Shown: in pieces, positions 8,892 to 34,041 of the stretch
How the letters are laid out: each line of letters opens with the position of its first letter
Position numbering within the stretch: the first letter of the stretch is position 1
From: Pedobacter sp. V48
GTDB taxonomy: Bacteria > Bacteroidota > Bacteroidia > Sphingobacteriales > Sphingobacteriaceae
Assembly: GCF_000523515.1 (NCBI RefSeq)
Contig: NZ_AWRU01000013.1
Span: forward strand, 307,908-371,907
Direction: 5' to 3'
Length of the DNA stretch: 64,000 bases
The notes under the pieces: model-generated
Database searches by the model: none
Seen by the model: only the letters and a program-made list of their open reading frames with translations
Told to the model about the DNA's origin: nothing
Made by a program: the position numbers and the translations under genes

Positions 8892-10487
8892 TTAAGTTAT
8901 TAAATCAGTTTTCCATGAGCCATCTACCAACCTCAAAATACTCAAGGGGTTACTGTTTTGTAATGCTGCAGGAAGTAATTCATCTGGAATATCCTGATAA
9001 GCTACCGGTCTTAAAAAACGATAAATTGCTGCTGTACCCACAGATGTTGATCTTCCATCAGTAGTTGATGGGAATGGTCCTCCATGTTGCATCGAATGAC
9101 AAACTTCTACACCTGTAGGAAAACCATTGTAGATCACACGACCCGATTTTTGAGTGATTATATCAATTACAGGGATTAAATTACTTTTATCCTCAGTCTC
9201 GGCATGAACTGTCGCCGTAAGTTGGCCTTCCAGTTGATTTAAGACCAGATGAAGCTGCGCTGTATCTTTAACCAAAACAAAAAGTGTTACGGGACCAAAA
9301 ACCTCTTCGTTTAATTGTTTGTTCGAAAGAAAATCATCAGCAGAAACCGTAAAAGCAATAGGTCTGGCTTCATTTCTATCGTCATTTGCTAATTTTATTC
9401 CCTCAGCCAAAACATTAACTCCTCTAACTGTTTTAGTGGTTTCGATACCTTTAGTGTATGATTGACAGATATTCTTGTTCAGCATAGTTGCAGGTTCAGT
9501 TGCTCCCAGATATTTCACGAAGTGATTTAGGAAAAGTTTGCCCGCTTCACTTTCTATTAGCAATACCAATCCCGGGTTAGTACAAAATTGGCCTGCCCCC
9601 ATAGTTACTGAGCCAGCCAATCCTTTAGCGATTGCTTCTCCTTTTACTTTTAATGCTTCTTCCATCAAAATTACCGGATTTATAGCGCTCATTTCTGCAT
9701 ATACAGGAATGGGTTCCGATCTTTTCGCAGCCGCATTAAAAAGAGTCATGCCTACTTTTCTGGACCCTGTAAAACCTACTGCTTTTATCGCAGCGTGCTG
9801 TACAAGTCTTACCGACTGATCGTTAGTAAGGTTTAGGGCCGAAAATACACCCTCAGGCATGCCTGTTCTTTTAGCTGCCTGAATAATTGCAGAAGATATC
9901 AATTCGCTAGTGCCAGGATGAGATGGGTGTGTTTTAACAACTACGGGACATCCTGCAGCAAGTGCAGAAGCGGTATCACCCCCTGCCGTAGAGAAAGCCA
10001 ATGGGAAATTACTGGCGCCATAAACAGCAACAGGACCAATTGGAATAAGCATTCTTCTGATATCAGATTTTGGTAATGGTGTTCTTTCAGGTTGTGCCGT
10101 ATCTATTCTTGCATCCACATACCAGCCATCGCGTAGTAACTGGGCAAACATTTTTAACTGACCACAGGTACGACCTCTTTCGCCTGTTATTCGTCCAATA
10201 GGCAAACCTGATTCTGTAACCGCTCTTTCTATCAATGTTGCTTCCAATGCCATTATTTCTTCAGTAATTGCTTCTAAAAACTCAGCACGCTCAATTGTTG
10301 AAGTATTCTTATAGCGAACAAAAGCATCCTGAGCTAATGATAATGCCCGTTCAAGTTCTTCTTCTGTTGCGTAAGTAAACTTTTCTGATATTAAAACATT
10401 CCCAGTGGGATTGAAAGCCTGAAAGCTATCAGCTCCATTGCCACTACGAATATTTCCAATAAAATTCTCACCTGTTATAGACACCAT
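8892..10487 (-). CDS. NADP-type aldehyde dehydrogenase, probably 2-oxoglutarate semialdehyde dehydrogenase
   Basis: A 531-residue enzyme of the ALDH superfamily. Visible features are the cofactor-binding GFTGSRKVG, a general-base Glu in AEMSAINP and the catalytic Cys near residue 303 in GQFCTNPG. The divergent motif around the Cys and the length match the 2-oxoglutarate semialdehyde (2,5-dioxopentanoate) dehydrogenases that end oxidative pentose and sugar-acid pathways. The context supports this: the two genes just upstream encode a KdaD-like FAH-family protein and a UxaA-type sugar-acid dehydratase, giving a Weimberg-type series. It is the last sugar gene of the leftward array. Other aldehyde substrates remain possible. 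Confidence 0.83.
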   Translation of the reverse strand: MVSITGENFIGNIRSGNGADSFQAFNPTGNVLISEKFTYATEEELERALSLAQDAFVRYKNTSTIERAEFLEAITEEIMALEATLIERAVTESGLPIGRITGERGRTCGQLKMFAQLLRDGWYVDARIDTAQPERTPLPKSDIRRMLIPIGPVAVYGASNFPLAFSTAGGDTASALAAGCPVVVKTHPSHPGTSELISSAIIQAAKRTGMPEGVFSALNLTNDQSVRLVQHAAIKAVGFTGSRKVGMTLFNAAAKRSEPIPVYAEMSAINPVILMEEALKVKGEAIAKGLAGSVTMGAGQFCTNPGLVLLIESEAGKLFLNHFVKYLGATEPATMLNKNICQSYTKGIETTKTVRGVNVLAEGIKLANDDRNEARPIAFTVSADDFLSNKQLNEEVFGPVTLFVLVKDTAQLHLVLNQLEGQLTATVHAETEDKSNLIPVIDIITQKSGRVIYNGFPTGVEVCHSMQHGGPFPSTTDGRSTSVGTAAIYRFLRPVAYQDIPDELLPAALQNSNPLSILRLVDGSWKTDLIT

Positions 10488-10512
10488 ACTTAGTAAAATT
10501 TAAAGCTATCTT

Positions 10513-11364
10513 TTATACACGAATAGCTATGTGATTTGTTAATGTTCCAATATTATCAATACTTATGCTAACCTCGTCCTTTTCATTCAAAGTAAAGTCA
10601 TTAGGAGGTACAATACAAGTTCCGGTCATTAAAAAACATCCGTTTTTAAAGTCGCACTCAGCATACAAATAGATTACTAACTCATTCAGAGAACGTTTCA
10701 TTCTGCTAATAGAAATCGAATCACGAAAAACCTCATCATTGTTTCGTTTGATAACCATCTCTATCATTGTTTTATCAGATATTGGCTTTTCAGGTACATA
10801 TAAACAAGGACCCAGTGCAGCACTCCTTTCATAAATCTTTGCCTGCGGCAGGTACAACGTATTTTCTCCTTCAATGCTTCTGGAACTCATGTCGTTTCCT
10901 ATAGTATAAGCCTGTATGTTTCCAGAAGAATTGATAAACAGCGTTAATTCAGGTTCTGGCACGTTCCAGGTCGAATCTTTTCTAATGTTTACGTGTTGTT
11001 TATGGCCGGCTACACGATGAGGTAATGACTTAAAGAATAATTCAGGGCGATCTGCATCATAAACTTTGTCGTACATGCTCGCTCCACCGGAATCTTTAGA
11101 TTCCTCTTTTCTGGCATCGCGACTGCGCAGATAGGTTACTCCCGCTGCCCACACTTCCTGCTGTCCGATTGGTGCCTCAACATCGTTTTCCAATATTGCT
11201 AACGCTTTATTTTCCTGCAAGGATTCAGGGTGCTCAGTCAGTACATGAACTAAATATTGGTAGAGGTTGTCATTGTTAATCAATGTATCCCAATCAATAT
11301 TTAGTAAATAATATCCCGCATCACTATGCAAAATAGCGCCTTGTTTAGTTTTATATAATTTCAT
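10513..11364 (-). CDS. FAH-family protein, probable 2-keto-3-deoxy-D-arabinonate dehydratase
   Basis: A 283-residue fumarylacetoacetate-hydrolase-fold protein. Metal-binding acidic residues are visible in PEPELTLFI (near residue 134). The blocks VWAAGVTYLRSRDAR, GNDMSSRSIEGEN and LYLPQAKIYERS resemble the archaeal KdaD type of 2-keto-3-deoxy-D-arabinonate dehydratase more than true fumarylacetoacetases. That enzyme makes 2-oxoglutarate semialdehyde, the substrate expected for the aldehyde dehydrogenase encoded 25 bp downstream. The UxaA-type dehydratase 38 bp upstream would supply its substrate. The stereochemistry of the sugar acid (D-arabinonate, L-arabinonate, D-xylonate) cannot be settled from sequence alone. 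Confidence 0.78.
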   Translation of the reverse strand: MKLYKTKQGAILHSDAGYYLLNIDWDTLINNDNLYQYLVHVLTEHPESLQENKALAILENDVEAPIGQQEVWAAGVTYLRSRDARKEESKDSGGASMYDKVYDADRPELFFKSLPHRVAGHKQHVNIRKDSTWNVPEPELTLFINSSGNIQAYTIGNDMSSRSIEGENTLYLPQAKIYERSAALGPCLYVPEKPISDKTMIEMVIKRNNDEVFRDSISISRMKRSLNELVIYLYAECDFKNGCFLMTGTCIVPPNDFTLNEKDEVSISIDNIGTLTNHIAIRV

Positions 11365-11402
11365 AATTTATTTATCCGTTTTAATTTGAAATTGTCTGTA
11401 TG

Positions 11403-13061
11403 TTATAAGGATATTCCTCTTTTCCAGGGAATAAAATCGTTGTGACCTAATGCTTCGGCCTTAGCTTTAACCTCCCCGCTTGCGATCTCTATGATGTAAT
11501 CGAGGATTCGTTCTCCTACCTGTTCAATGGTTTCTTCACCAGTTATTATTGTGCCTGCATCGATGTCAATGATGTCATTCATCTTTTTGTACAAAGTTGT
11601 ATTGGTTGATATTTTTACTACAGGTGCAATAGGGTTGCCCGTCGGGGTGCCCAGTCCAGTTGTAAAAAACACTAGTGTAGCTCCCGCTCCAACCTCTGCC
11701 GTTGTCGACTCTATATCACTACCTGGCGTACATAGTAACGTTAGCCCTGATTTAGAAACCTGCTGAGGGTAGTCGAGAACATCAATAACCGGCGATGTAC
11801 CTGCTTTTTTTGCTGCACCGGCAGATTTAATGGCATCAGTAATTAAACCGTCGCGAATATTGCCTGCCGATGGATTGGAATCAAAACCTGAACCAACAGC
11901 TTTAGCTCTTTCATGATAAGCAGTCATTAAGGTCATGAACTTCCGGGCCACGGTCTCATCTATACAACGATCGCTCAATTCCTGCTCCACACCACAAAGC
12001 TCCGGAAATTCCGAAAGTATTACTGATGAGCCCAAAGCAACCAATAGATCTGAAGTATATCCTAAAGCGGGGTTAGCCGAAATTCCTGAAAAACCATCTG
12101 ATCCTCCGCACTCCAGTCCAATACAAAGTTTGCTTAAAGGAGCGGGTTTGCGCTTAAGGTCATTGGCTTGCATCAAGCCTGCAAAGGTTTGTTTTATAGC
12201 CAATTTCATTAATTCAGACTCGGTTCCTACCTGTTGCTGCTCAAAACAATACAAAGGTTTGGAAAACTGGGGATCTCGCTTCGCAATTTCCTCTTTCAAT
12301 AGCGGTATTTGCGCGTTCTGACAACCAAGACTTAACACCGTAGCTCCTGCAACATTAGGATGCGTTATATATCCGGCAAGCAAGCCACAAAGGTTAATGG
12401 TATCATCTTTTGTGCCACCACAGCCTAACGAATGTGTTAAGAATTTAACGCCGTCAACATTCGGAAACACCCTGTTTTCTGCCTCTGCATCGGTACCTAA
12501 AGTTTCTATGTCTATGCTCAATATATCTTCAACAGCTATACCGGCTCTGTGCATCTTAACCAACTGTTGTACCTGATTGTAATAAGATGAGTCATTGTCA
12601 TGATACCCCAGTCCTTTCATGAAGGCATCCTGAATAACCTGTACATTCTTATTTTCACAAAATACCAAAGGGATAATCAGCCAGTAATTGGCCACACCAA
12701 CCTTGCCATTATCTCTATGATATCCCATAAAAGTTTTATCGCGCCATGAAGATACTTCCGGCACTTCCCAGCCGGTTTTTCTTTCCTTAAGCTTATAGTT
12801 ATTAGCCGCATGACTAACATTGCCCGTTGTAATTACCTCGCCTTTTTTAATTGCTTCAGTTGCCTTGCCTACAAGCACCCCGTACATCCGAACATCATCT
12901 CCGGGCTGTAAGTCTATAGTCGCAAATTTATGCTTTGCCTGAACATCTGTAACCAGGTCATAAGTTCCTGCATCACTATTTATGGCATCACCTGCTTTTA
13001 AATCCGATAATGCTACCTCTATATTATCTGTGCGATTTATTTTAAGTGTTTTTGACTTCAT
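11403..13061 (-). CDS. UxaA-family sugar-acid dehydratase (altronate/galactarate dehydratase type)
   Basis: A 552-residue protein with an N-terminal SAF domain (about 1-100) and a C-terminal altronate/galactarate dehydratase domain. Typical blocks are GYHRDNGKVGVANYW, LGCGGTKDD, GCQNAQ, GLECGGSDGFSG and GAGATLVFFTTGLGTPTG. Conserved Cys and His residues in these blocks probably hold iron. The family dehydrates aldonates or uronate-derived acids to 2-keto-3-deoxy acids. Next to a KdaD-like enzyme and an aldehyde dehydrogenase it most likely acts on a pentonate such as D-arabinonate rather than altronate: no uronate isomerase, altronate oxidoreductase or KDG kinase gene is in this window. It lies 11 bp after the DUF4091 gene. 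Confidence 0.85.
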   Translation of the reverse strand: MKSKTLKINRTDNIEVALSDLKAGDAINSDAGTYDLVTDVQAKHKFATIDLQPGDDVRMYGVLVGKATEAIKKGEVITTGNVSHAANNYKLKERKTGWEVPEVSSWRDKTFMGYHRDNGKVGVANYWLIIPLVFCENKNVQVIQDAFMKGLGYHDNDSSYYNQVQQLVKMHRAGIAVEDILSIDIETLGTDAEAENRVFPNVDGVKFLTHSLGCGGTKDDTINLCGLLAGYITHPNVAGATVLSLGCQNAQIPLLKEEIAKRDPQFSKPLYCFEQQQVGTESELMKLAIKQTFAGLMQANDLKRKPAPLSKLCIGLECGGSDGFSGISANPALGYTSDLLVALGSSVILSEFPELCGVEQELSDRCIDETVARKFMTLMTAYHERAKAVGSGFDSNPSAGNIRDGLITDAIKSAGAAKKAGTSPVIDVLDYPQQVSKSGLTLLCTPGSDIESTTAEVGAGATLVFFTTGLGTPTGNPIAPVVKISTNTTLYKKMNDIIDIDAGTIITGEETIEQVGERILDYIIEIASGEVKAKAEALGHNDFIPWKRGISL

Positions 13062-13072
13062 TAATCAAGTAT

Positions 13073-14752
13073 TTATTTTTCTAGTATTCGTTTCATGGTC
13101 TGATTTATCCATTCTTCTTTCTTGGGGAAATCAGCGTAAGTTTTTATTTCAGATAGCATGGGATCGTCCTGCTTAATACCGGCCGACTGCAGAATGGCAT
13201 AGTCCTGAAGAGATTCTGCAAATACTTCCCATCTTATAGAATCGTATGGGCCATCTGGTCCAGGATAAACTACAAAAGGATCTCCAACAGCAATTCCAGG
13301 ATAAGCATTTCCAGAGGCATTGGTAAAAGGATCAATAGGTTCTTCTTTTTCCACTACGTTCCAATAGTTGTACCCCCAGTGTAAAAAGCCCTGTGCTTTC
13401 AAATGATAGAATAAAAACCCTGACATTCTGATTTTAGCAAGAGGGGTATCATAGAACCGATTAAGCCACTGATCTCTAGGTCCTGTGCAGTAATAAACCC
13501 AATGAGAAATATTCTCTTTAAGGTAATCACCAGCCGAACTAATGATTGGAATTGGTATATCTGTTAATTTTTCTCTTCCATACCTCACATCACTTAATGC
13601 ATCCATCACTTTCATCCAGGGAGCCAGTTCCTGCAATATCTTTCTAGCCCTCTTGTAGTTTTGTATATGTTCCGATCCGGGCTCATCCGATAAATGGAAG
13701 TAGGAATCTGCTAATACGTTTTCCTGCTTAAGGAAGCGATGAAACTCTGGTAGATACTGTTTTAAAAAATTCAGGTAAACCGGAGATGTTGCAGAAAGAT
13801 TCTCGTCCCAAAGCAGTTCGTATTTGTCACCTTTTTTTGTGTAAACATGCATTGCATTTTCAACACCCCAGTAAAGAAAAAGATGGCCCCATTCAAATTT
13901 TTTGTACCCCAATTCCTTGGTCATATCAAGGAACCGTTTGATACGCGACCAGTCGAAACTATATTTACCGGGACTGATTTCATCGATAATCAGCATCTGA
14001 CAAGGCTTTTTAAATACTGTTTTAAGTTCAAACAAGTTTTGAATGAAGGCTACGTCATTTCCATGATCAATTAAATTCTTCATCTGTGCTTTAGTAAGCT
14101 GCCACCACTTTTCATCATACATTTCAGTTTTATACTGAGCCCAGGTAGCCTCGCCTCGCCACCAATGGGTTACATGAAAGTTCTTACGGGGCTGAACAAT
14201 AAGCTTGCTAATGTTTAAATCGACCAGAAGTGTTTTTTCCATATTTACTTTTCCCTCATTCCAGCTTACTTTTACTTTGCATTGGTGAATACCCGGTTCT
14301 ATATTTTCCGGAATCCTTAGGGTTACCCAAAATGAACGGCTTGCATAGGGACTAGCATCTACGCGGGTAAGGGGATAAAGTGGATCCGGTAACATGCCCG
14401 GTAAGAAACCAATCCCATCCAGCTCTTCCTCCCGTACATCAGTATTAAAGTTCTGAAAGGGAACCAGGCCTACATAACGGACTTCATGTTTAACTGCACC
14501 AGCTTCCATATTACAGGCAATCTGTACCCTGTCTTTCATATTACTATGAAAGCCAACCTGAAAGGATACTCTGCTGTTTCTAGCTACGATTAGGGTAAGA
14601 CGATCATTGGCTTTACCTGCCGATTGAGGAAAGATTCGTTTCAGCGAGCTTTCCAGCCAAACGTCCATATTTTTATCTTTACCTAAGGCATCCTTATGTA
14701 ACAGCAGGCCTAATAAAATAAATACAAATGCTATTTTTTGAACTCTTTTCAT
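13073..14752 (-). CDS. Secreted DUF4091 protein (GH123-like putative glycoside hydrolase)
   Basis: A 559-residue exported protein with a signal peptide (about 1-24, ending ALGKD). An N-terminal beta-sandwich-like region is followed by a TIM-barrel-like domain of the DUF4091/GH123 type. Visible motifs are THWWRGEATWAQYK, KKFEWGHLFLYWG, the acidic HLSDEPG pair where GH123 enzymes hold catalytic acids, GFLFYHLKAQGFLHWGYNYWN and a late YPGPDGPYDSIRWE block. GH123 enzymes are N-acetylgalactosaminidases, but DUF4091 proteins are broader and mostly uncharacterised. In this operon it is probably an accessory glycosidase for the target glycan. The exact activity is unknown. Confidence 0.75.
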   Translation of the reverse strand: MKRVQKIAFVFILLGLLLHKDALGKDKNMDVWLESSLKRIFPQSAGKANDRLTLIVARNSRVSFQVGFHSNMKDRVQIACNMEAGAVKHEVRYVGLVPFQNFNTDVREEELDGIGFLPGMLPDPLYPLTRVDASPYASRSFWVTLRIPENIEPGIHQCKVKVSWNEGKVNMEKTLLVDLNISKLIVQPRKNFHVTHWWRGEATWAQYKTEMYDEKWWQLTKAQMKNLIDHGNDVAFIQNLFELKTVFKKPCQMLIIDEISPGKYSFDWSRIKRFLDMTKELGYKKFEWGHLFLYWGVENAMHVYTKKGDKYELLWDENLSATSPVYLNFLKQYLPEFHRFLKQENVLADSYFHLSDEPGSEHIQNYKRARKILQELAPWMKVMDALSDVRYGREKLTDIPIPIISSAGDYLKENISHWVYYCTGPRDQWLNRFYDTPLAKIRMSGFLFYHLKAQGFLHWGYNYWNVVEKEEPIDPFTNASGNAYPGIAVGDPFVVYPGPDGPYDSIRWEVFAESLQDYAILQSAGIKQDDPMLSEIKTYADFPKKEEWINQTMKRILEK

Positions 14753-14767
14753 TTTTTCAAATAATTT

Positions 14768-15103
14768 CTAACAGCAACCCTTCGGGCCACAATAATCGTC
14801 TAACATCAATGGATTTAATCCCTTTTCCAGTTCTTCTTCACTGGCGTATCGAACCTTGTCCACAATAACCCTAATATGAAATTCATCATCTAAGCCTTCA
14901 AATCCGGTCTCCTTTGATAAAAAAAACTGTTTTTCATCTCCTTCATTTAAACCTTTAAGTTCAGCTTCCAAGGAAGGAAGAATTGTTCCATGACCATGTA
15001 AATAATTGATTGGTAACCCATCCAAAATATCCTCAAGTATCTCTCCTTTACTGTTTTCCATCTTATATCTAATGGATACTACAGTTTTATCCTCAATTTT
15101 CAT
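14768..15103 (-). CDS. Short SlyD-type FKBP peptidyl-prolyl isomerase with Cys tail
   Basis: A 111-residue protein starting MKIEDKTVV, the start that matches SlyD proteins. A longer reading from 15136 exists but would overlap the aquaporin gene further; the chosen start overlaps it by 11 bp. It has the FKBP blocks INYLHGHGTILPSLEAEL and RVIVDKVRYASEEELEKG. The chaperone flap (IF) domain, inserted between these in SlyD, is missing and replaced by about 20 residues. The tail ends DDYCGPKGCC, a small Cys cluster recalling the metal-binding SlyD tail. It sits with a CobW-type metallochaperone GTPase and an aquaporin, suggesting a role in metal handling or metalloenzyme folding (inference). Confidence 0.78.
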   Translation of the reverse strand: MKIEDKTVVSIRYKMENSKGEILEDILDGLPINYLHGHGTILPSLEAELKGLNEGDEKQFFLSKETGFEGLDDEFHIRVIVDKVRYASEEELEKGLNPLMLDDYCGPKGCC

Positions 15104-15806
15104 AGGCACCAATTCTTGATTTTTCAACGTCTGCATGCGTTTGTGGAATAAAGGTTTCAGCTAATAAAAATTTACAGACTAAAACAGCGAAGATGGCACC
15201 AAAAACGGTAGCGCTTAGATACACCCACAGGTGTTCAGTATGACCAGAAATAATAGCCGGAGCTAATGATCTCGCCGGGTTCATTGATGCGCCACAAATT
15301 GGACCTGCAAACAGCGCTTCCAAACCAACCACACCTCCAATTACTATTCCTGCAAGGCTCCCTTCTCTTTTACGCTTTCTTCCTACAGTAAATATAACGA
15401 GCATTAAAAAAAATGTCAGAAAAAACTCAAGTATGAAAGATTGAAAAGCAGAACCTGCAGGCAGTGTTGATCCTAGTGTAGCATTAGCCGGAAATAAGGC
15501 ATGCAGTGTGCAACTTGCCGTGATGGCTCCCGTTACCTGACTTAAAACAAAAGGCACCAAATCTCTTAGCGGATGCTTTCCTGATATGGCAAGGGCGATG
15601 CTCACCGCAGGATTCATATGCGCACCTGAAATACTTCCAAAAGCATAAATCATACTCATTACGATCAAACCAAAGGTGATTGCTATACCCATATGCGTCA
15701 CTACTCCACCCGATTCCTGGTTAATGATAATTGCCCCTGTACCACAGAAAACCATTATAAATGTGCTTATAAACTCAGCGGTATATTTTTTTACTGGACT
15801 CTGCAT
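15093..15806 (-). CDS. MIP-family channel (aquaporin)
   Basis: A 237-residue inner-membrane protein with six hydrophobic segments and the two MIP signature loops, GAHMNPAVS and GASMNPARS. The second NPA is followed by R-S, not the R-D of glycerol facilitators. Counting back from the second NPA as in AqpZ, the selectivity-filter positions read Phe, Ala, Ala, Arg; the water-specific His is replaced by Ala. This suggests a wider pore, as in NIP or metalloid channels, rather than a strict water channel (inference). It lies 18 bp after the CobW gene and overlaps the SlyD-type gene, inside a sugar operon. No arsenic genes are nearby. Confidence 0.88.
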   Translation of the reverse strand: MQSPVKKYTAEFISTFIMVFCGTGAIIINQESGGVVTHMGIAITFGLIVMSMIYAFGSISGAHMNPAVSIALAISGKHPLRDLVPFVLSQVTGAITASCTLHALFPANATLGSTLPAGSAFQSFILEFFLTFFLMLVIFTVGRKRKREGSLAGIVIGGVVGLEALFAGPICGASMNPARSLAPAIISGHTEHLWVYLSATVFGAIFAVLVCKFLLAETFIPQTHADVEKSRIGAYEN

Positions 15807-15824
15807 TTTATTCTTCTGATAGAC

Positions 15825-16898
15825 CTAATCGATAATCCTGTGTGTTGGTTTCGGGTAGCCCGGTTTAAATGAGGAAATATCTTTCGTAATAAATTTATAC
15901 CCTGAAGTTGCTTCAATTTTGCTAATTGTATTAAACACCAACGCTTTAAGATGTTCTGGCTCTGTTTGCACTCTTGCATTGATCAGTATATCTGCCTTTG
16001 CCGAAACTGTTTTTCCTATCTCATTGATAGACGTCTGCACTCCCGATGTAAAGCTTATCTTCTTCTGTTGCACACCATCGTCAATAAAGAATTTTAAATG
16101 ACCTATTGGTAATTTCTGTTCGGTTATTTCCCAATGAATTTCTTTTGCAAGCGTTACTCCTGTCTCAAACGCATTATTTTCATCAGCAAACAGCTCCATT
16201 TCAATATCAAGCCAGGCAAGCTCGGCTTCTCCAGCACCATAAATATCATAGTCGATTTCCAAAGAGCTTCTCGCACCTGATTTAAAATTTTCCAAAGTAA
16301 TTAACCACTGGATTATACTGTCTTTATCAAGCGAGTTTTGAAACAGAATTGTTTTCTCAGGAAACTTACTATTTACCAAACGGTCCATCTTGCTTAACTC
16401 ATCGTCAGTTAAAGAATCGATCTTGTTGACAATAAGGATATCTGCCTCTTCAATTTGTTTCTTATAAATATAAGTTACACTATCCACAAATAACGGTGCA
16501 GACTGGAGCATAGTCGGCAACACATTTGCATCCACAAAAACAGAGATGACGGTTTCTATATCCTTGCGAAATTTTTGTAGTGGTTTTACAACTGTAGCAA
16601 TCATATCTGTGCAGGAACCCACGGATTCGGCAAACACTATCTCTGCATAATGAGATTCTTTTAGCACCTCAATTAAGCTGTCTACTTTATCATAATTACA
16701 ACAAAAACAGCCATCTGTAACTTCCATAACTGGAACATTTGCATTGCGCATGAATCGGGTATCCACCAACTGCACCCCCTGGTCGTTTGTGATTACACCA
16801 ACATTCACCTTTTCTTTCATTAATTGAGTGCATGCATTTTGAATAGCTGTTGTTTTACCACTACCCAGAAAACCGCTGATCAGATATAACTTCATCAT
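15825..16898 (-). CDS. CobW/COG0523 G3E-family GTPase, putative metallochaperone
   Basis: A 357-residue cytoplasmic GTPase. The P-loop GFLGSGKT is at residues 9-16, the metal-binding CxCC motif (C64, C66, C67) lies in DGCFCC, and the NKID guanine-specificity motif is at 158-161. A C-terminal CobW-like domain follows. G3E GTPases use GTP hydrolysis to place metals (Zn, Co, Fe, Ni) into client proteins. The switch I sequence NDQG differs from the usual NEFG of ZnuC-linked zinc members, so another metal is possible. It stands 27 bp after the GH116 gene and before the aquaporin. Metal-dependent isomerase and dehydratase enzymes of the same operon are possible clients (inference). Confidence 0.87.
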   Translation of the reverse strand: MMKLYLISGFLGSGKTTAIQNACTQLMKEKVNVGVITNDQGVQLVDTRFMRNANVPVMEVTDGCFCCNYDKVDSLIEVLKESHYAEIVFAESVGSCTDMIATVVKPLQKFRKDIETVISVFVDANVLPTMLQSAPLFVDSVTYIYKKQIEEADILIVNKIDSLTDDELSKMDRLVNSKFPEKTILFQNSLDKDSIIQWLITLENFKSGARSSLEIDYDIYGAGEAELAWLDIEMELFADENNAFETGVTLAKEIHWEITEQKLPIGHLKFFIDDGVQQKKISFTSGVQTSINEIGKTVSAKADILINARVQTEPEHLKALVFNTISKIEATSGYKFITKDISSFKPGYPKPTHRIID

Positions 16899-19565: not shown

Positions 19566-19593
19566 CAGTATCAATAATTAGTGATGGTTATAA

Positions 19594-21264: not shown

Positions 21265-21274
21265 TTGACTCTGC

Positions 21275-22606: not shown

Positions 22607-22617
22607 CAGATAGGTGC

Positions 22618-26876: not shown

Positions 26877-26959
26877 AATGTTAAATTGCGACTTGCCTCG
26901 GCTACTTAATACGCTTTTCACTTGAAATTGTGTACACCAAATACCTGAGATTTGGATTT

Positions 26960-26975
26960 GCTTACACGTTTAAGC
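26960..26975. promoter_or_regulatory. LacI-type operator L2
   Basis: GCTTACACGTTTAAGC is a near-perfect 16-bp palindrome with a central CG, typical of LacI-family operators. It lies 83 bp upstream of the GH172 start. Its exact reverse complement is present at 28523-28538 before the SusC gene. Its centre is 90 bp from operator L1 at 27050. Confidence 0.75.
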
Positions 26976-27049: not shown

Positions 27050-27065
27050 GCTTAAACGTTTAAAC
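27050..27065. promoter_or_regulatory. LacI-type operator L1
   Basis: GCTTAAACGTTTAAAC is a 16-bp palindrome with one mismatch. With its left flank it forms a 25-bp block (27041-27065) that is repeated exactly in inverted orientation at 28435-28459. It is upstream of the GH172 operon and probably bound by the LacI-family regulator encoded at 27141. Confidence 0.75.
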
Positions 27066-27140
27066 GAACAAATATTTTTTTATTTTTTTTCAGCGGCTGA
27101 TGTAACATTCTCGTTCTAACATGCGCACAGGCCATTAAAA

Positions 27141-28175
27141 CTAATGCTTTTTAACTATAGCGCTTGATTGTCTTACAATTAATTTCGACGGGATACTTAT
27201 CTGCGTGTTGAGGCTTTTTTTATCAGTAATGTTTTTAATTAAGATCTGAACAGCCTTTTTACCCATTTCAAGTAGTGGCTGTTCTATATAGGTTAAAGGG
27301 GAATAAAAGAAGTCAAAAGCTTCACTCTCATCAAAGCATACGATAGCTACGTCATCAGGGACCCTATATTGCATCTTATTTAGTGATTTCAATCCTTTTA
27401 AAGTAAGTGTATTTGTGGCAAAAAATAGTGCATCCATTCCAGGATTCTGAGCAAACAGTTCACGGATACCCGCTCCTATCTCTTCCTGGTTGGCATTGAA
27501 ATCAACCGTTTTGATCAACGGGGTTTTGGCTTTTAACAGTTTATTGTCCTTAATTGCATCAAGGTAACCTCGTTTTCTATCCAGCATATGAACTAAATCT
27601 GTTTTATACGCAACCATGCCTATGTTTGTCCTGCCCGCTTCAATTAGATGGCTCACAGCATGATAAGAAGCCTCGTAATTATTAGTCATCACGTAGTTGG
27701 TGTCCAGTCCTTTAAAATACCTGTCGATGAGTACCAGTGGAATATTGTTCTTTAAAAGCGCTTCAATTTGTTCTTGTGAATTTTCGGCCGGTGCAATGAT
27801 AAAACCGTCAACCTGTCTTTCAGTTAAAATATTGATCAGGTTTTGAGATTTCTCTGCATTTTCATCCGCACTTGCAAAAATCACGGTATAGTTAAATTTC
27901 TTCGCTTCGTCTTCTACATTTCTGGCAAGGTTAGCAAAGAACGGATTGGAAATATCTGCTACAATTAATCCAAAAGTATGCGATTTTCCTGTTTTCAGGC
28001 TTTTGGCAATCTGATTTGGCTGATATCCCATTTCCACAGCTGTATCTCTTATTACCTGGGCTATTTCTTTACCAACACGTGCTTCTTTTTCCTTATTATT
28101 TAGCACGTAAGAAACCAGCGCGGTAGAAACACCCACAGTTTGTGCAATATCTTTAATGGATACCTTCTTCTTCAT
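27141..28175 (-). CDS. LacI-family transcriptional regulator
   Basis: A 344-residue repressor-type protein. The N-terminal helix-turn-helix (VSIKDIAQTVGVSTALVSYVLNN, in part) and hinge (YQPNQIAKSLKTGKS) are clear. A periplasmic-binding-protein-like ligand domain follows, with GLIVADISNPFFANLA, GFIIAPAE, LVLIDRYF and VAIVCFDES. It sits between two divergent sugar gene sets, with matching operator pairs on both sides, and probably governs both. A weaker palindrome 14 bp upstream of its own start suggests autoregulation. The ligand is presumably a sugar of the encoded pathway. Confidence 0.94.
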   Translation of the reverse strand: MKKKVSIKDIAQTVGVSTALVSYVLNNKEKEARVGKEIAQVIRDTAVEMGYQPNQIAKSLKTGKSHTFGLIVADISNPFFANLARNVEDEAKKFNYTVIFASADENAEKSQNLINILTERQVDGFIIAPAENSQEQIEALLKNNIPLVLIDRYFKGLDTNYVMTNNYEASYHAVSHLIEAGRTNIGMVAYKTDLVHMLDRKRGYLDAIKDNKLLKAKTPLIKTVDFNANQEEIGAGIRELFAQNPGMDALFFATNTLTLKGLKSLNKMQYRVPDDVAIVCFDESEAFDFFYSPLTYIEQPLLEMGKKAVQILIKNITDKKSLNTQISIPSKLIVRQSSAIVKKH

Positions 28176-28188
28176 TACGTAAAGGTAT

Positions 28189-28204
28189 GCTTAATCGATT
28201 AACA
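28189..28204. promoter_or_regulatory. Candidate autoregulatory LacI-type operator
   Basis: GCTTAATCGATTAACA contains a perfect 12-bp palindrome (28191-28202) with a central CG and agrees with the strong operators at 12 of 16 positions. It lies 14 bp upstream of the LacI-type start codon at 28175, a natural place for autorepression. It is weaker than the other four sites and not proven. Confidence 0.45.
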
Positions 28205-28434
28205 TAAAAATATTAATTGAAACATTTGCTTAATTAGTTTGAGACTTTTAGATACCCATATCTTGAAAATGAAATAGATCTGTGTTTTTCAGGGGCTATT
28301 GTAAAGAATTTATCACGAAGCAAAATTCAACTGGAGTAAAAAATGTATTTTTAACTATTTAAAGGCCAATTCTGTAAAACCATATACTGCTTTTTAAAAG
28401 AATTATTTCATGAAATGCAAAAAACCGCTTGTTT

Positions 28435-28450
28435 GTTTAAACGTTTAAGC
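28435..28450. promoter_or_regulatory. LacI-type operator R1
   Basis: GTTTAAACGTTTAAGC is the exact reverse complement of operator L1 (27050-27065), and the identity extends over 25 bp (28435-28459). It lies upstream of the SusC gene, on the far side of the LacI-type gene. Confidence 0.75.
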
Positions 28451-28522
28451 TTAAGTTTGATATACACCAATTATAAATCATTTTTTGAACAGAGATCGCT
28501 TCGGAATTTTTTTGATCTTTCT

Positions 28523-28538
28523 GCTTAAACGTGTAAGC
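28523..28538. promoter_or_regulatory. LacI-type operator R2
   Basis: GCTTAAACGTGTAAGC is the exact reverse complement of operator L2 (26960-26975). Its centre is 88 bp from that of R1, close to the 90 bp seen on the left side. It lies about 140 bp upstream of the chosen SusC start. Confidence 0.75.
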
Positions 28539-28677
28539 AAGTATTATGGGATGCGCGCTCCCTGGAATTTCTGCTTATAATTTAGCGGCATCATTGAAAC
28601 GGAGCACTCCTACTTTTCTAACTATGGAGAACACTTACCACGCTCAATTTTTTAACCATAAACCAAATAAAATTTTT

Positions 28678-31600
28678 ATGAAAGGTTACCAGAACACTAA
28701 AACGAGTAATCGTTATGGTGGTAATGCCAGAGTAGTATTAAAGATTTTTTTCTTTTTCTTACTCGCAAATTATCACCCGCTGAAAGCACACGCTTTTCAG
28801 GTAAATGCAACACAACAAGCCCGGGTTATTACAGGAACTGTTAAAGATGATGCAGGCATCCCATTACAGGGCGTTAGTGTCACGATCAAGGGAGAAACCG
28901 CAAAAACACAAACTGATGTAAACGGAAAATACAGCATCGGCTTACAAAGCTCTGGTTCTCATCTCATCTTCTCTTATATTGGGATGGAAACCCGCGAAAT
29001 TCCCATTGGCTCTGGAAATGTTTACAATGTTACCCTACAGGATGACAGTAAAACATTGGAAGAAGTATCCATCTCTACCGGATACATGACGCAAAAAAAG
29101 GCAGACCTAACTGGAGCCATCAGTGTAATCTCAAGAGACGACTTTGCTAAAAATCCAAGTGCTAATGTGATGAGGTCTTTGCAGGGAAAGGTTCCGGGCG
29201 TTTTTATTACAACAGATGGTAATCCCGCTGAAAATGTTGGAATTCAAGTACGCGGCATTACCTCTATGAACTCCTCTCCTGCTCTGATTGTATTGGATGG
29301 TCAGCCTGTTACCATTAACCTGAGAGACATTAATCCAAATGACATCGAATCAATGCAGGTATTAAAAGATGCAGCATCGGCTTCAATCTACGGTTCCCGT
29401 GCTGCAGGTGGTGTTATTCTCATCAATACAAAAAAAGGCAGAAAGGGTGATCAAACAAAAATAACACTCGACAGTTACGTTGGTGCTTCAAAAATAATGG
29501 GAGTTCCGGATATGCTTAATGCAGTGCAGTATGGCCAGGGCTTATGGCAGGCAACCGTTAATGATGGCGACGATCCGGGACCTGGTAACATACGTATTTA
29601 TAACTACGACTGGAATCGGGATGCCAACGGGGTTCCCGTGCTAAACAAGGTCACTCCCATAGAGTGGTTAAATGCAGATCATACCATGCCTTCGTCAGAT
29701 ACGGATTGGTTTAAAGAAGGCACCAGAACTGGTTATCAGCAAAATCATCAATTAACTATATCCAGCTCAAGCGAAAGATCAACCAGTCTCTTCTCTTTAA
29801 ATTATTATGACAATAATGGTACACAGGTTACCTCAAATTTTAAACGCTATTCAGCGCGTTTCAATAATGATTATGACCTGCTAAAAGGAAGATTAACTAT
29901 AGGTGAAAATTTTGCATTATCGAAACTTGCAATTCGTGATGTTAACAGTACTTATGGGTTTCTGGTGATGCCGCCAAACATTCCGGTTTATGATCTTAAT
30001 GGAGGCTGGGGTGGTGTAGCCATGCCTCTTGGTATGGACGACTTTAACAACCCCGTTAGAGACCTGTTGATCAGAAAGGACAATAGGAACAACTATCTCA
30101 AAGCATTGGGAACTGTATATGCAAATCTGAAGATCCTGCCTAATCTCGCCCTTAAAACCCAATTTGGTGTAGATTATACGATGGAATACGACAGAACCAT
30201 TGATCCGAAATGGGTTGAGTCCGGAGGAAAAAGTAATACCATAAACAGGGTGTTTCAAAATAACACACATGACCTTGGAACTACCTGGACAAATACATTA
30301 ACCTATAACCTTAAGCTTGGAGAACATACAGTGGATATGCTGGGCGGTTTGGAAGCCTACAAACTTTTACAGGAAAATTTTCAGGGTAACCGCGATGGGC
30401 TGCTATTAGAAAATAGAGATTACGCTTACCTTGGTACAGCAACGGGTGATAGCAAAGGCCTGCTAGGCGGAGGTAATGAAAGAAAGCTGTTCTCCTACTT
30501 TGGAAAGATCAATTACGCATATGCATCCAAATATTTGCTTTCCGCAACTATTCGTCGTGATGGATCTTCTGTATTTGGAGAGAACAATAAATATGGTTTT
30601 TTTCCTGCATTCTCGGCCGGTTGGAGAATCAAGAACGAATGTTTCTTAAAGGATGTTAATTTTATTTCAGACTTGAAACTAAGGGCAAGCTGGGGCCAAA
30701 ATGGTAATTCTGCACCCCTAGCCTCAGCATTGCTGGTAAATATTTACGGAGTTGATGTCGATGGGACTTCTTACCCGATAGGTGGCAATCAAACTGGTGG
30801 AATTCCATCGGGTTACCTGAGAAGGAGTTTGGGAAATCAGGATTTAAAGTGGGAAACCACGACCCAAACAAACATAGGTGTTGATTTTGCTTTCTTAAAC
30901 AATCGCCTTACGGGATCTTTCGATTGGTTTAATAAGAAAACGACAGACATGCTTTTTCTACCACCCTATATTGGAGCTTTGGGTGAGGGTGGATACAAAT
31001 GGATCAATGGTGCAGATATGACCAACAAAGGATTTGAATTGATCCTCGGCTGGAATGATACCAAAGGTGATTTTTCTTATCACATCACCACTAATTTTTC
31101 TGCCTACAAAAACAAAATTACAGGCCTGCCTTCAAGTGTTAGGTACGCTTATGGTGGCAATGGTCTGTTAGACGATATTCTTGGTCGGCCACGTAATTCA
31201 TTTTATGGCTTAGTTGCAGACGGCATTTTTAAAACGCAGGAAGAAGTTGATAATTCTGCCCAACAACCAGGCAAGGGTATTGGAAGAATCAGGTATAAAG
31301 ATTTAGACGGAGACGGGGTAATTAATGAAGCCTACGATCGTACCTGGATAGGTGTTCGAGATCCGAATTTAATGGCCGGCATAAATCTGCAGGCTTCCTA
31401 TAAAAATTTCGATTTTACGGCATTTTTCCAGGGTGTTTTTGGAAACGACGTTTACAACTCCTGGAAAGAGCTGAGCGATTTCTGGAACATAGGTGTTCAG
31501 AACGACAGAAATCACCCACTCCGCGTGTTGGATGCCTGGACCCCTTTAAATCCTAATTCAGACATCCCAGCATTGTCACGTCGCGACTCAAATGGTGAAA

Positions 31601-31845
31601 AAAGATTGTCTACCTACTTTATCGAGCCTGGCTCCTACGTGAAGTTAAGGAGTGTTGATTTGGGCTACACATTTCCATCAAAAATCACCAACAAAATCAG
31701 TATAGAAAGATTAAGGCTATATGTTTCTGCCCAAAATCTCTTTACCGTTAAAAGTGGCAAGTTCACCGCAGGTGATCCTGAAAATCCGGGCACAGGCTAC
31801 CCAATGCCACTTACTACTTATTTAGGTATCAATGTTACATTTTAA
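28678..31845 (+). CDS. SusC-like TonB-dependent outer-membrane receptor
   Basis: A 1055-residue receptor from the chosen ATG at 28678 (MKGYQNTKTS). The frame is open from 28546, but the extra 44 residues would bury the signal peptide, whose hydrophobic core is at VVLKIFFFFLLAN. A carboxypeptidase-regulatory-like domain (GTVKDDAGIPLQGVSVTIKG) is followed by the plug (VRGITSMNSSPALIVLDGQ, VLKDAASASIYGSRAAGGV) and a TonB-dependent beta-barrel ending in TTYLGINVTF. It imports oligosaccharides with the SusD protein encoded 11 bp downstream. Two LacI-type operators precede it. The substrate is inferred from the linked GH172, GH116 and pentose genes. Confidence 0.95.
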   Translation: MKGYQNTKTSNRYGGNARVVLKIFFFFLLANYHPLKAHAFQVNATQQARVITGTVKDDAGIPLQGVSVTIKGETAKTQTDVNGKYSIGLQSSGSHLIFSYIGMETREIPIGSGNVYNVTLQDDSKTLEEVSISTGYMTQKKADLTGAISVISRDDFAKNPSANVMRSLQGKVPGVFITTDGNPAENVGIQVRGITSMNSSPALIVLDGQPVTINLRDINPNDIESMQVLKDAASASIYGSRAAGGVILINTKKGRKGDQTKITLDSYVGASKIMGVPDMLNAVQYGQGLWQATVNDGDDPGPGNIRIYNYDWNRDANGVPVLNKVTPIEWLNADHTMPSSDTDWFKEGTRTGYQQNHQLTISSSSERSTSLFSLNYYDNNGTQVTSNFKRYSARFNNDYDLLKGRLTIGENFALSKLAIRDVNSTYGFLVMPPNIPVYDLNGGWGGVAMPLGMDDFNNPVRDLLIRKDNRNNYLKALGTVYANLKILPNLALKTQFGVDYTMEYDRTIDPKWVESGGKSNTINRVFQNNTHDLGTTWTNTLTYNLKLGEHTVDMLGGLEAYKLLQENFQGNRDGLLLENRDYAYLGTATGDSKGLLGGGNERKLFSYFGKINYAYASKYLLSATIRRDGSSVFGENNKYGFFPAFSAGWRIKNECFLKDVNFISDLKLRASWGQNGNSAPLASALLVNIYGVDVDGTSYPIGGNQTGGIPSGYLRRSLGNQDLKWETTTQTNIGVDFAFLNNRLTGSFDWFNKKTTDMLFLPPYIGALGEGGYKWINGADMTNKGFELILGWNDTKGDFSYHITTNFSAYKNKITGLPSSVRYAYGGNGLLDDILGRPRNSFYGLVADGIFKTQEEVDNSAQQPGKGIGRIRYKDLDGDGVINEAYDRTWIGVRDPNLMAGINLQASYKNFDFTAFFQGVFGNDVYNSWKELSDFWNIGVQNDRNHPLRVLDAWTPLNPNSDIPALSRRDSNGEKRLSTYFIEPGSYVKLRSVDLGYTFPSKITNKISIERLRLYVSAQNLFTVKSGKFTAGDPENPGTGYPMPLTTYLGINVTF

Positions 31846-31856
31846 AACGTACGAAA

Positions 31857-33605
31857 ATGAAAAAATATAAGATAATTATAGCACTCCTTGGAATGGTCCT
31901 ATTCTTTGGGTGCAAAAAGTACCTCGATGTATCAACCAAGGGCGCTTTAACTGAAGAACAGGTTTCCAATCCGGAACAATTGGAAAATTTTGTAACGGCA
32001 GCATATGCCTATATGCCGAATTTGGGATACCCCGATACCCATGCGCCCTGGATAGCCAGTCTTCGCTCAGACGATGCCTATAAAGGCGGCGGTGGTTTAA
32101 GTGATCAAACTCCATGGTACGAAATGGAAATCTTTTCAGCCGTAACTCCAAATGTTGGAAATAATGATGGGCCATGGTACCAGGGTTACTGTGCCATCAG
32201 CCGCACCAATGGCGCGCTGCGCCTGTTAGGTAAATTTGACGAAACTCAGTTTGCTGCCAAGGAACAACGTATTGCTGAAATGAAATTTTTAAGAGGCTGG
32301 ATCTATCTGGGGATGAAATTAAGATGGAATTATGTCCCATGGATAGACGAAACTGTTGCAACAGATGCCTTGGTAGTTGCAGGAATTTCCAACCGGCCTA
32401 AAGGTTCTGTAAACGACCTTGAATTATGGGATAAGATCATCAAGGATTTGGAAGATGCCGCTAATGTATTGCCAGAAACCCAAGCAGAAAAGGGCCGTCC
32501 CACTAAGTTTGCCGCTCATGCCCTTGCCGCCAAAGCTCTATTATTTAGAGCGTATGAAAAAAATGACAGACATGAGGTAACCAATATCAACAAGGAAACC
32601 CTAAACAAATCTCTGGCACATATAAATGAGATTACTGCAAGAGATGGTTCGCAGTATGACCTGACACCGGATTTTGCTGAGAACTTTATGATCGAATACG
32701 ATAACAATACTAAGGAATCTCTTTGGGAAATTCAATATTCTTTAGACGATGGAACAACCAATGGAAGGGTAAACTGGGGCGATCAGCTTAATGCACCCTG
32801 GTGGTCTCCATATTTTGGCTGCTGCGATTTTCATAAAATCTCTCACAACATGATAAATGCCTTTAAAACTGATGGAACCGGATTGCCTGATTTCGACAAT
32901 TACAACAATACTGAATTAGGTGGACAGCTTTATAAACAGTATTTCAAGGATCATGCTTTTGACCCACGAATGGGTCATACTGTAGCGATACCTGGCTATC
33001 CCTGGAAATATGACAACAAACTTATGTTTGATGAATCAGGCTCACGTGCGCCATTTCAGTATGGATATTTCAATTCTATGAAGGAACAGGTCCGTCCTGA
33101 TTGTAACTGCATGTTCAAGCCTTTTTATGTTCAAAATTCAATGAACAAGAAAGAAATCCGTTATGCTGAAGTATTACTTTGGAAAGCCGAAATCTTAATC
33201 CAATTGGATAGAACTGATGAGGCCCTCCCTATCATAAACAGAATAAGGGCACGGGCAGCAAACAGCCTTGGCCGCTTAAAGAAAGACGATGGGAGTTTGT
33301 GGATGAATTATAAGGTAGAGCAATATAAGCCGGGGGTAAACTGTACCTGGACCAAAGATTTTGCATGGAAAGCTTTAATGTGGGAAGACAGGTTAGAGCT
33401 TGCTGGCGAAGGAAGGCGGTTTTACGACCTCATGCGTTGGGGACAGTTGAGTACAGTAATGAACACTTACATTGAAAAAGAGAAAAAACGGTTTGATTGG
33501 TTTAACCTGGCGCATTTTACTGCTGGCCGGGATGAATTCCTACCCATTCCTCAGCCTCAAATAAATTACTCTCAAGGAAGTTATGTACAGAATCCAGGAT
33601 ATTAA
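31857..33605 (+). CDS. SusD-like glycan-binding lipoprotein
   Basis: A 582-residue surface lipoprotein with a lipobox ending at Cys19 (VLFFGC). It shows the SusD/RagB layout: N-terminal TPR-like helices (SNPEQLENFVTAAYAYM), a central insertion-rich region, and the C-terminal RYAEVLLWKAEILIQL, INRIRARAA and EGRRFYDLMRWG blocks. SusD proteins cap the SusC barrel and bind the glycan at the cell surface. It lies 11 bp after susC and 13 bp before a small lipoprotein gene, forming a three-gene transcript that ends at the hairpin at 34062. Confidence 0.95.
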   Translation: MKKYKIIIALLGMVLFFGCKKYLDVSTKGALTEEQVSNPEQLENFVTAAYAYMPNLGYPDTHAPWIASLRSDDAYKGGGGLSDQTPWYEMEIFSAVTPNVGNNDGPWYQGYCAISRTNGALRLLGKFDETQFAAKEQRIAEMKFLRGWIYLGMKLRWNYVPWIDETVATDALVVAGISNRPKGSVNDLELWDKIIKDLEDAANVLPETQAEKGRPTKFAAHALAAKALLFRAYEKNDRHEVTNINKETLNKSLAHINEITARDGSQYDLTPDFAENFMIEYDNNTKESLWEIQYSLDDGTTNGRVNWGDQLNAPWWSPYFGCCDFHKISHNMINAFKTDGTGLPDFDNYNNTELGGQLYKQYFKDHAFDPRMGHTVAIPGYPWKYDNKLMFDESGSRAPFQYGYFNSMKEQVRPDCNCMFKPFYVQNSMNKKEIRYAEVLLWKAEILIQLDRTDEALPIINRIRARAANSLGRLKKDDGSLWMNYKVEQYKPGVNCTWTKDFAWKALMWEDRLELAGEGRRFYDLMRWGQLSTVMNTYIEKEKKRFDWFNLAHFTAGRDEFLPIPQPQINYSQGSYVQNPGY

Positions 33606-33618
33606 AATCTATACAGCG

Positions 33619-34041
33619 ATGAAAAAAATTATTTATATGTGTTATCTACCTTTGATTTTTCTGTTTACCGGTTGTAAGAAAGAGCCGGTTATTGAAAGCA
33701 AAGCTGGAGTGAGTTTGCCTATGGTAACCAACCTTCAATTACAAAAAACAGCTGAAAAGCAAGTAAAGTTAACCTGGGGCATTCCGTCCTCCGTTTCAGA
33801 CCAAATTGTTCAGCCTTTAAATGTATTTGTTGAGGTAAACGAGGTGATAAGTGTTACAAAAACAGTGTCGGTATTCTCTACCACACTTGCGAATGCACCA
33901 ACAGAGTTTGTATACCAATTGCCTGATGCTGCAAAAAATTACCACCTCACGGTAAAGCTTATGGGAAATACAAAAGTTGTTGACAAGAACTATTCAAGTC
34001 AGATTTATTCACTTGGACAGACCGTAGTTTATACAAAATAA
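33619..34041 (+). CDS. Small lipoprotein of the SusC/D operon
   Basis: A 140-residue exported protein starting MKKIIYMCYL with a lipobox ending at Cys19 (FLFTGC). A longer reading from 33583 overlaps susD and would spoil the signal peptide, so the ATG at 33619 is preferred. The mature part reads like a single fibronectin-III or Ig-like beta-sandwich (VTNLQLQKTAEKQVKLTWG). I do not recognise a named family. Position suggests an accessory surface glycan-binding protein in the SusE/SusF role, though it is much smaller than those. Confidence 0.72.
   Translation: MKKIIYMCYLPLIFLFTGCKKEPVIESKAGVSLPMVTNLQLQKTAEKQVKLTWGIPSSVSDQIVQPLNVFVEVNEVISVTKTVSVFSTTLANAPTEFVYQLPDAAKNYHLTVKLMGNTKVVDKNYSSQIYSLGQTVVYTK

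Follow-up and report, generated by a model that had tools for sequence, protein, structure and literature searches.

We analysed a gene cluster at positions 8892 to 34041 of a 64,000-nucleotide stretch (the window) of contig NZ_AWRU01000013.1 from Pedobacter sp. V48 (the host). With a probability of about 0.8, we read it as a two-armed regulon, controlled by a LacI-family regulator, for a glycan bearing D-arabinofuranose (D-Araf), whose sugar would be burned by both an isomerase-kinase and an oxidative route. A D-arabinose or D-arabinofuranosyl-glycan regulon had been proposed here in an earlier annotation of the DNA letters (the original prediction). That proposal is strongly supported at the sequence level by relatives of the enzymes ExoMA1 and ExoMA2, retained D-Araf residues, a KdaD-type enzyme, the lack of a detected L-fuculose-1-phosphate aldolase (FucA), separate L-fucose and L-arabinose loci and the operator map.

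In the proposed mechanism, a SusC/SusD pair (SusCD) would import oligosaccharides, from which periplasmic GH172 and GH116 enzymes would remove alpha-D-Araf and beta-D-Araf, respectively (Table 1). A DUF6786 lipoprotein would aid furanose/pyranose interconversion and a FucP-type symporter would carry D-arabinose into the cell. The first route would use FucI and a ribulokinase-type kinase to form D-ribulose 5-phosphate. The second would start with oxidation of D-arabinose to D-arabinonate by an L-fucose-dehydrogenase-type SDR enzyme and a lactonase, both from an L-fucose operon on C2, and would proceed through a UxaA/GarD-type dehydratase, KdaD and an aldehyde dehydrogenase (ALDH) to 2-oxoglutarate (C, L and G numbers designate contigs, loci and genomes). 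CobW and SlyD-like proteins may provide metal, such as iron for the dehydratase.

Hydrolases and oxidative enzymes

The best PDB match of the GH172 protein was ExoMA1 (8ic8, E-value 6.6e-119), the runner-up among solved proteins reaching 2.3e-39. Its Asn304 aligns with ExoMA1 Asn253, which blocks fructose and is replaced by Gly in alpha-FFase1 (PMC10509167; this and the other articles cited by PMC number are represented here by excerpts). Among eleven proteins of the same clade, this specificity column holds Asn in 7 and Asp in 4. The host has five further GH172-family genes (L002-L007: two on C7, the others on C32, C15 and C6), the first C7 copy having Gly. In the four readable paralogues, which are of low identity and do not include L003, the column holds Gly once (L002), Tyr twice and Asn once (L005). 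The Asn thus fits D-Araf, yet is no unique mark of it. For the GH116 protein, the best match was ExoMA2 (8ic6, E-value 4e-107; runner-up 1.6e-7), and Glu447, His462, Arg499 and Asp573 align with ExoMA2 Glu431, His446, Arg483 and Asp557, assuming between chain index and published numbering a constant offset of 4, inferred since Glu, His, Arg and Asp all then fit. That both are D-arabinofuranosidases of the ExoMA1/ExoMA2 kind, with the D-Araf residues retained, is strongly supported by these alignments. The original prediction had already pointed to D-arabinofuranosidase activity for GH172, in agreement with ExoMA1 as its nearest solved relative and with the Asn at the specificity position.

The KdaD-like protein, also anticipated, matched KdaD (2q18) with an E-value of 1.4e-50, the next PDB entry standing at 4.8e-14. 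In the dehydratase, Cys135, Cys214, Cys247 and Cys318 align with cysteines of 6u7l, the four UxaA/GarD cysteines being kept. A D-arabinonate dehydratase of the UxaA/GarD family exists in Herbaspirillum (PMC6336799). We built a tree of 48 family members, obtained from 53 loci (L078, L080, L082, L084 and L148 hold the same genes as L043, L044, L045, L046 and L058), in which the window dehydratase falls within a 13-row clade with support 97/89. Rows were labelled by a uniform rule, a neighbour within 1.5 kb. All 11 dehydratases with a KdaD neighbour lie inside the clade and all 21 with L-fucose-type neighbours lie outside. The label changes once over these 32 rows, against at least 6 changes in 300 shuffles, and at least 2 in shuffles made without five close congeners. 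The other 16 of the 48 rows have neither neighbour and stand outside the count; they include L170 and L202, KdaD loci in which KdaD lies further off. L187, L218 and L223, first labelled KDA, are outside the clade and have no KdaD beside the dehydratase under the 1.5-kb rule. Clade and neighbourhood together point to D-arabinonate as the probable substrate. Altronate and L-fuconate were considered and are less likely, since the 21 rows with L-fucose-type neighbours all lie elsewhere in the tree.

Operators and related genomes

The operator sites are palindromes arranged as two pairs, one 5' of GH172 and one 5' of susC, and a 30-bp block holding one operator of each pair forms an inverted repeat. 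In the window, four matches with at most 2 mismatches were found against 0.07 expected, and none of 100 shuffles reached four. Over the whole genome (6.46 Mb), there are four sites with 0-1 mismatch, every one in this locus. Three more operator-like sites have 2 mismatches, a level at which the reversed control pattern gives five per strand; a wider regulon was rejected on this ground. We then compared five congeners (G230, G249, G216, G153 and G045), chosen for a dehydratase 86-95% identical to that of the host. Each of the five loci has an operator pair in the promoter region on the downstream side of lacI (that of G045 without GH172), and in G230 there is also a pair before susC. L100 and L103 have a single site ahead of GH172, whereas the Chitinophaga locus L202 has one site before lacI, one before GH172 and a weaker third near GH116. 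These results support one local LacI regulon, in which the GH172 promoter region would be duplicated at the susCD arm; LacI control had been part of the original prediction and finds backing in conserved palindromes at both arms, themselves predicted from sequence.

The host's gene set recurs in related genomes; the congeners and the phylum survey described below are samples of a larger group. The composite operon is found again in G230. G249, G216 and G153 have the order LacI-GH172-DUF6786-MFS-GH116-CobW-SlyD-like-dehydratase-KdaD-ALDH, without kinase, GH123, MIP channel or SusCD beside LacI, and no FucI was found anywhere in their genomes. At the G045 locus (L074:17440-18020), a remnant of the MFS gene comprising its 3' part comes after intact operators and is followed by dehydratase, KdaD and ALDH. 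The genes from GH172 through SlyD-like are missing, so that the arabinofuranosidases are gone and the oxidative genes kept, in what is a decayed-looking copy.

In the survey, a GH172 of the ExoMA1-like clade was detected in 17 of 395 genomes of the phylum, belonging to several families. KdaD lies in the GH172 locus in 4 of the 17 (about 14 kb away in the host, less than 7 kb in G003, G006 and G421), and a FucI homologue above cut-off lies within 10 kb of GH172 in 4 (the host, G001, G561 and G412, that of G412 being a distant homologue). Both occur in the GH172 locus only in the host and G230, among 23 genomes examined for both; in G680 they are present at separate places. L106 and L107 were compared in part. 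Because G001 shows the gene order GH172-DUF6786-FucI-MFS-kinase, identical to that of the host, the host operon can be read as a front half of the isomerase type fused to a back half for oxidation.

We also scanned named genomes by KdaD alignment, retaining the best 80 of at least 580 loci. ALDH relatives occur in 27 of the 80, and 14 have a GH172 of this clade in the flank. Several of these 14 loci are short contigs; together they show SDR in 8, lactonase, dehydratase and GH116 in 2 each, ALDH in 1, and neither FucI nor kinase in any. Their sources include Mucilaginibacter species, Chitinophagaceae and Chitinophaga sp. BIN2, whose locus comprises LacI, GH172, ALDH, SDR, dehydratase, DUF6786, KdaD, MFS and GH116. 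The four best matches among them to the GH172 of G006, a genome of the host's family, are from Mucilaginibacter (82-86% identical), which points to the Sphingobacteriaceae as the probable family of the host. Elsewhere, in G223 (L078, L079), KdaD, dehydratase and ALDH stand beside nucleoside-hydrolase-family and ADP-ribosylglycohydrolase-family genes, with a PfkB-family sugar kinase further off, possibly a D-ribose/D-ribonate version yielding the same keto-deoxy acid.

Possibly shared first steps and alternative readings

The nearest SDR in the host, at L141:9593-10375, forms an adjoining pair with the nearest lactonase in the C2 L-fucose operon, and the two are paired likewise in G249, G153 and G101. 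In G006 and G010, a fucose-type cluster has a lactonase and no SDR, and the only SDR to reach an E-value of 1e-60 lies in the GH172 locus. G003 has both genes in the GH172 locus alone. Because these three Mucilaginibacter-like genomes split a single SDR and lactonase between fucose and GH172 loci, the simplest reading is that one pair serves L-fucose and D-arabinose. The two sugars have the same configuration at carbons C2-C4, and L-fucose dehydrogenases of other organisms accept D-arabinose (PMC10746189, PMC11293516).

According to another explanation, which we hold to be quite unlikely, D-arabinonate comes from outside or from periplasmic oxidation, and D-arabinose itself is consumed only through FucI and the kinase. 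The window operon has no dehydrogenase or lactonase, and the coexistence of two branches in the host and G230 would be accounted for. However, G249, G216 and G153 combine D-arabinofuranosidases and the oxidative branch with no FucI, and 8 of the 14 named GH172-KdaD loci (some of them short contigs) have an SDR while none has a FucI.

An ordinary L-fucose utilisation locus is far less probable. FucI and FucP do score above the L-fucose NCBIfam cut-offs. The host FucI is the sole PF07881 match in the genome. The original prediction had taken FucI as a pointer to D-arabinose; a D-arabinose isomerase, 3a9r, is indeed its best PDB match, but the FucI sequence cannot separate L-fucose from D-arabinose as substrate. 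The kinase, by contrast, scores 667 bits with the ribulokinase model NF003154 against 38 bits with L-fuculokinase TIGR02628 (cut-off 471), reaches 537 bits with TIGR01234 (under the cut-off of 583) and is 59.6% identical to the host's own AraB. AraB phosphorylates D-ribulose (PMC12307932), in line with the earlier claim that AraB-type kinases accept ribulose, and a FucI plus AraB route was inferred in E. coli evolved on D-arabinose (PMC6452873). No FucA was found in the genome. Its two PF00596 (Aldolase_II) matches are other enzymes: AraD, adjoining the host AraB (343 bits, cut-off 257), and a rhamnulose-1-phosphate aldolase/dehydrogenase fusion (TIGR02632, 949 bits, cut-off 568). No fucosidase family occurs among the locus proteins.

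A full L-fucose operon lies instead on C2 (L141), with alpha-L-fucosidase, MFS, RhaM-type mutarotase, a second UxaA/GarD dehydratase, SDR2, FAH hydrolase, lactonase and L-fucose dehydrogenase, and without FucI. Its dehydrogenase scores 396 bits with NF052481 (cut-off 300), and its lactonase is an L-fucono-lactonase-like amidohydrolase (278 bits, cut-off 400). It resembles the window cluster in its paralogous dehydratase and through the SDR/lactonase pair proposed as common. They differ in that its SDR2 and hydrolase would, by family, lead to pyruvate and lactate, whereas KdaD and ALDH in the window would lead to 2-oxoglutarate. The L-fucose reading was rejected because there is one FucI, no detected FucA, a kinase of ribulokinase type and a separate, non-phosphorylative and FucI-free L-fucose operon; the original prediction was right that it leaves the absent aldolase unexplained. 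An L-arabinose locus was likewise rejected, C1 carrying its own, separate AraB-AraD-AraA set. Finally, that the glycosidases act on another furanoside such as an alpha-D-fructofuranoside, D-arabinose being incidental, deserves hardly any credence: the GH172 family includes alpha-D-fructofuranosidases (7v1v; PMC10509167), but the window GH172 has Asn where ExoMA1 blocks fructose, GH116 retains its beta-D-Araf contact residues, and KdaD and FucI suit arabinose rather than fructose.

Several observations nevertheless weigh against the D-arabinose regulon. Family scans detected neither an aldose dehydrogenase nor a lactonase in the window operon, and the LacI operator does not occur in the C2 operon proposed to provide them, so that their co-expression is unexplained. 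The D-arabinose and L-fucose clusters of Paraburkholderia mimosarum show separate induction and no promiscuity, and strict specificity was found for one L-fucose dehydrogenase of Herbaspirillum (both PMC6336799). G101 and G421 resemble the host in having SDR and lactonase elsewhere than in the GH172 locus; the divided layout is therefore limited to three genomes of one genus. The Asn of GH172 recurs in the paralogue L005, and four clade members carry Asp. The kinase is no nearer to the FucI-linked kinase of G001 than to AraB; a dedicated D-ribulokinase clade, which we considered, finds no support here. The assignment of the ALDH as a 2,5-dioxopentanoate dehydrogenase is weak: its best NCBIfam model, 2,5-dioxovalerate dehydrogenase, gives only 103 bits for a cut-off of 750. 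Ten of the 17 GH172 survey genomes have neither KdaD nor an above-cut-off FucI in the locus; of these, G010 has an SDR next to its GH172 gene, while G312 and G302 each show a FucI-like match that falls below the cut-off, about 3.3 kb from GH172. D-arabinose accounts for neither the GH123 gene nor the MIP channel, and no GH183 endo-D-arabinanase was detected among the 20 window proteins scanned.

These last points bear on the glycan itself. Mycobacterial arabinogalactan, suggested by the original prediction, is not borne out as the target because the locus has no GH183. The two PF13810 (GH183) matches elsewhere in the genome, on C16 and C4, both lack the LacI operator, and the C16 gene was rejected as a regulon member, having no operator and a non-sugar neighbourhood. 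The full-length GH183-family (DUF4185) gene of the genome, L017:9985-11085, is flanked by SNF2 helicase and Pycsar-effector-domain genes, followed by a polyphosphate kinase gene. As for the 'DUF4091' hydrolase, the gene is present as predicted, but its protein matches beta-N-acetylgalactosaminidases (8p4l, E-value 7.9e-270; 8q8h, 1.3e-268), and this GH123 relative gives no evidence on D-arabinose. SusCD, GH123, GH172 and GH116 under one operator, with no endo-D-arabinanase, are the basis of a twofold proposal that is doubtful as a whole: that the target is an undescribed glycan with beta-N-acetylgalactosamine and both alpha- and beta-D-Araf, not mycobacterial arabinogalactan, and that D-arabinose oxidation in Bacteroidota branched off the L-fucose oxidative pathway, dehydrogenase and lactonase remaining common and a dedicated dehydratase, KdaD and ALDH being added.

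Gene layout, known systems and significance

All the host genes named beforehand were located by the ORF (open reading frame) table and family scans, with one LacI regulator amid the GH172/GH116/DUF4091/FucI/FucP/AraB-type set and SusC/SusD; the SlyD-like ORF at 14768-15103 had been overlooked (Table 1). In the minus-strand run from GH172 to ALDH (26921 to 8892), neighbouring genes are separated by -76 to 81 bp, so the run can be a single transcript. Tight spacing goes on beyond 8892, with a dGTPase gene after 21 bp and a YpdA-like gene after 7 bp, so the transcript may run past this point. The dGTPase and YpdA-like reductase genes occupy window positions 6554-8870, 3' of ALDH; the dGTPase gene stands there also in G230, G249, G216 and G153, and a dGTPase-like gene is likewise 3' of KdaD in G680 (L151). 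Read-through of the sugar operon into dGTPase, a nucleotide-pool gene, is possible.

Table 1. Features of the D-arabinose cluster, in window coordinates
Feature	Coordinates	Strand	Basis or remark
Operator GCTTACACGTTTAAGC, GH172 side	26960..26975		Pattern match
Second operator on the GH172 side, at 90 bp	27050..27065		In 30-bp block repeated inverted before susC
Operator, susC side	28435..28450		Pattern match
Second operator on the susC side, GCTTAAACGTGTAAGC, at 88 bp	28523..28538		Pattern match
Predicted GH172 exo-alpha-D-arabinofuranosidase	25710..26921	-	PF11175 317 bits; signal peptide by eye
DUF6786 lipoprotein (by eye), aldose-1-epimerase fold	24463..25692	-	PF20583; predicted structure
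FucI-type isomerase, proposed D-arabinose to D-ribulose	22618..24381	-	PF07881; best PDB match 3a9r
FucP-type MFS sugar:H+ symporter, proposed D-arabinose uptake	21275..22693	-	TIGR00885 341.5 bits, cut-off 280.4
Ribulokinase-type FGGY kinase, proposed D-ribulose to D-ribulose 5-phosphate	19594..21309	-	NF003154 667 bits, cut-off 428
Predicted GH116 exo-beta-D-arabinofuranosidase	16926..19574	-	PDB 8ic6 ExoMA2; Tat-like signal by eye
CobW/COG0523 GTPase, putative metal chaperone	15825..16898	-	PF02492
MIP-family channel	15093..15806	-	PF00230
SlyD-like 111-aa protein, putative metal chaperone	14768..15103	-	Ends CGPKGCC; NF008008 36.9 bits, cut-off 174
GH123 beta-N-acetylgalactosaminidase-like ('DUF4091' hydrolase)	13073..14752	-	PF13320; 8p4l, 8q8h
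UxaA/GarD-family dehydratase, proposed D-arabinonate dehydratase	11403..13061	-	PF20629/PF04295
KdaD-like FAH protein	10513..11364	-	Best PDB match 2q18 KdaD
ALDH, proposed 2,5-dioxopentanoate (alpha-ketoglutarate semialdehyde) dehydrogenase	8892..10487	-	Best PDB matches 3v4c, 1eyy
LacI-family regulator	27141..28175	-	PF00356 and PF13377; operators conserved alongside
SusC-type TonB-dependent transporter	28546..31845	+	PF07715, PF00593
SusD-type lipoprotein	31857..33605	+	PF07980, PF14322
DUF4945 protein, possibly a SusCD surface partner	33583..34041	+	PF16303

A structure model of the DUF6786 protein (pLDDT 72.6) superimposes on the aldose 1-epimerase 3nre with a VIA-align Z of 18.9 and 3.1 A over 236 residues. 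Its sequence search against the PDB gave no relative (best E-value 0.92), the likeness being by fold alone, and the fold is also that of the YidC periplasmic domain. DUF6786 occurs in 24 of the 80 KdaD loci, including 13 of the 14 with GH172, and in FucI-type loci too. We propose, on the strength of the model, that it acts as a periplasmic D-arabinose mutarotase, since furanosidases free the furanose form and one L-fucose dehydrogenase reportedly prefers the pyranose (PMC11293516). The SlyD-like ORF had no Pfam match and scored below the cut-off for SlyD-type isomerases. CobW GTPase and this protein, with its cysteine tail (14768-16898), accompany the oxidative half in G249, G216 and G153, and a SlyD-like gene is present in G421 (L108) as well. 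They resemble a pair that delivers metal, perhaps to the iron dehydratase. The MIP channel gene (15093-15806) is shared with G230 alone among the five congener loci.

We compared the cluster with known systems. Polysaccharide utilization locus PUL42 of Dysgonomonas gadei, like the host a member of the Bacteroidota, also has GH172 D-arabinofuranosidases and a FucI-type isomerase (PMC10115798), the latter being the most abundant carbohydrate-active protein on D-arabinan, as well as a putative GH116 (PMC10509167). PUL42 has GH183 (DUF4185) endo-D-arabinanases and three GH172, whereas the host has one GH172 and no GH183; relative to the PUL42 genes named in the excerpts, the host adds the oxidative branch, CobW, SlyD-like and GH123. 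The D-arabinan cluster of Microbacterium arabinogalactanolyticum (PMC10509167) shares with the host GH172 and GH116 (ExoMA1/ExoMA2) and a putative isomerase and kinase leading to D-ribulose 5-phosphate. Unlike the host cluster, it is actinobacterial, with an ABC transporter, intracellular exo-enzymes and GH183, and the excerpts mention no oxidative branch. Non-phosphorylative Route II of Herbaspirillum/Paraburkholderia (PMC6336799) and Sulfolobus resembles the branch predicted for the host in its acid-sugar dehydratase (UxaA/GarD in bacteria), KDP dehydratase and alpha-ketoglutarate semialdehyde dehydrogenase. No link to D-arabinofuranosidases is mentioned in the excerpts of PMC6336799, whereas in the host the predicted branch shares one operon with them, with dehydrogenase and lactonase in the L-fucose operon.

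The coupling of D-arabinofuranosidases to D-arabinose catabolism is thus already published (PMC10115798, PMC10509167). What is new here is that a D-arabinofuranosidase locus would offer the sugar a second fate, by oxidation. A literature search, with most subscription papers outside its scope, found no paper treating D-arabinonate together with D-arabinofuranosides or D-arabinofuranosidases, and none on 2-keto-3-deoxy-D-arabinonate in Bacteroidetes; a further search brought up only the two D-arabinan papers already cited.

D-arabinofuranose is rare beyond actinobacterial walls. The presence of an ExoMA1-like GH172 in 17 of the 395 phylum genomes suggests a pool of D-Araf glycan harvested by environmental Bacteroidota. 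The downstream chemistry would depart from the published isomerase/kinase scheme, some loci looking built for oxidation to 2-oxoglutarate. As the host operon appears to hold both routes, the value of each would be separable genetically. Finally, a clade of 'altronate/galactarate dehydratases' gains a testable substrate, D-arabinonate, and DUF6786 a testable role as a mutarotase.

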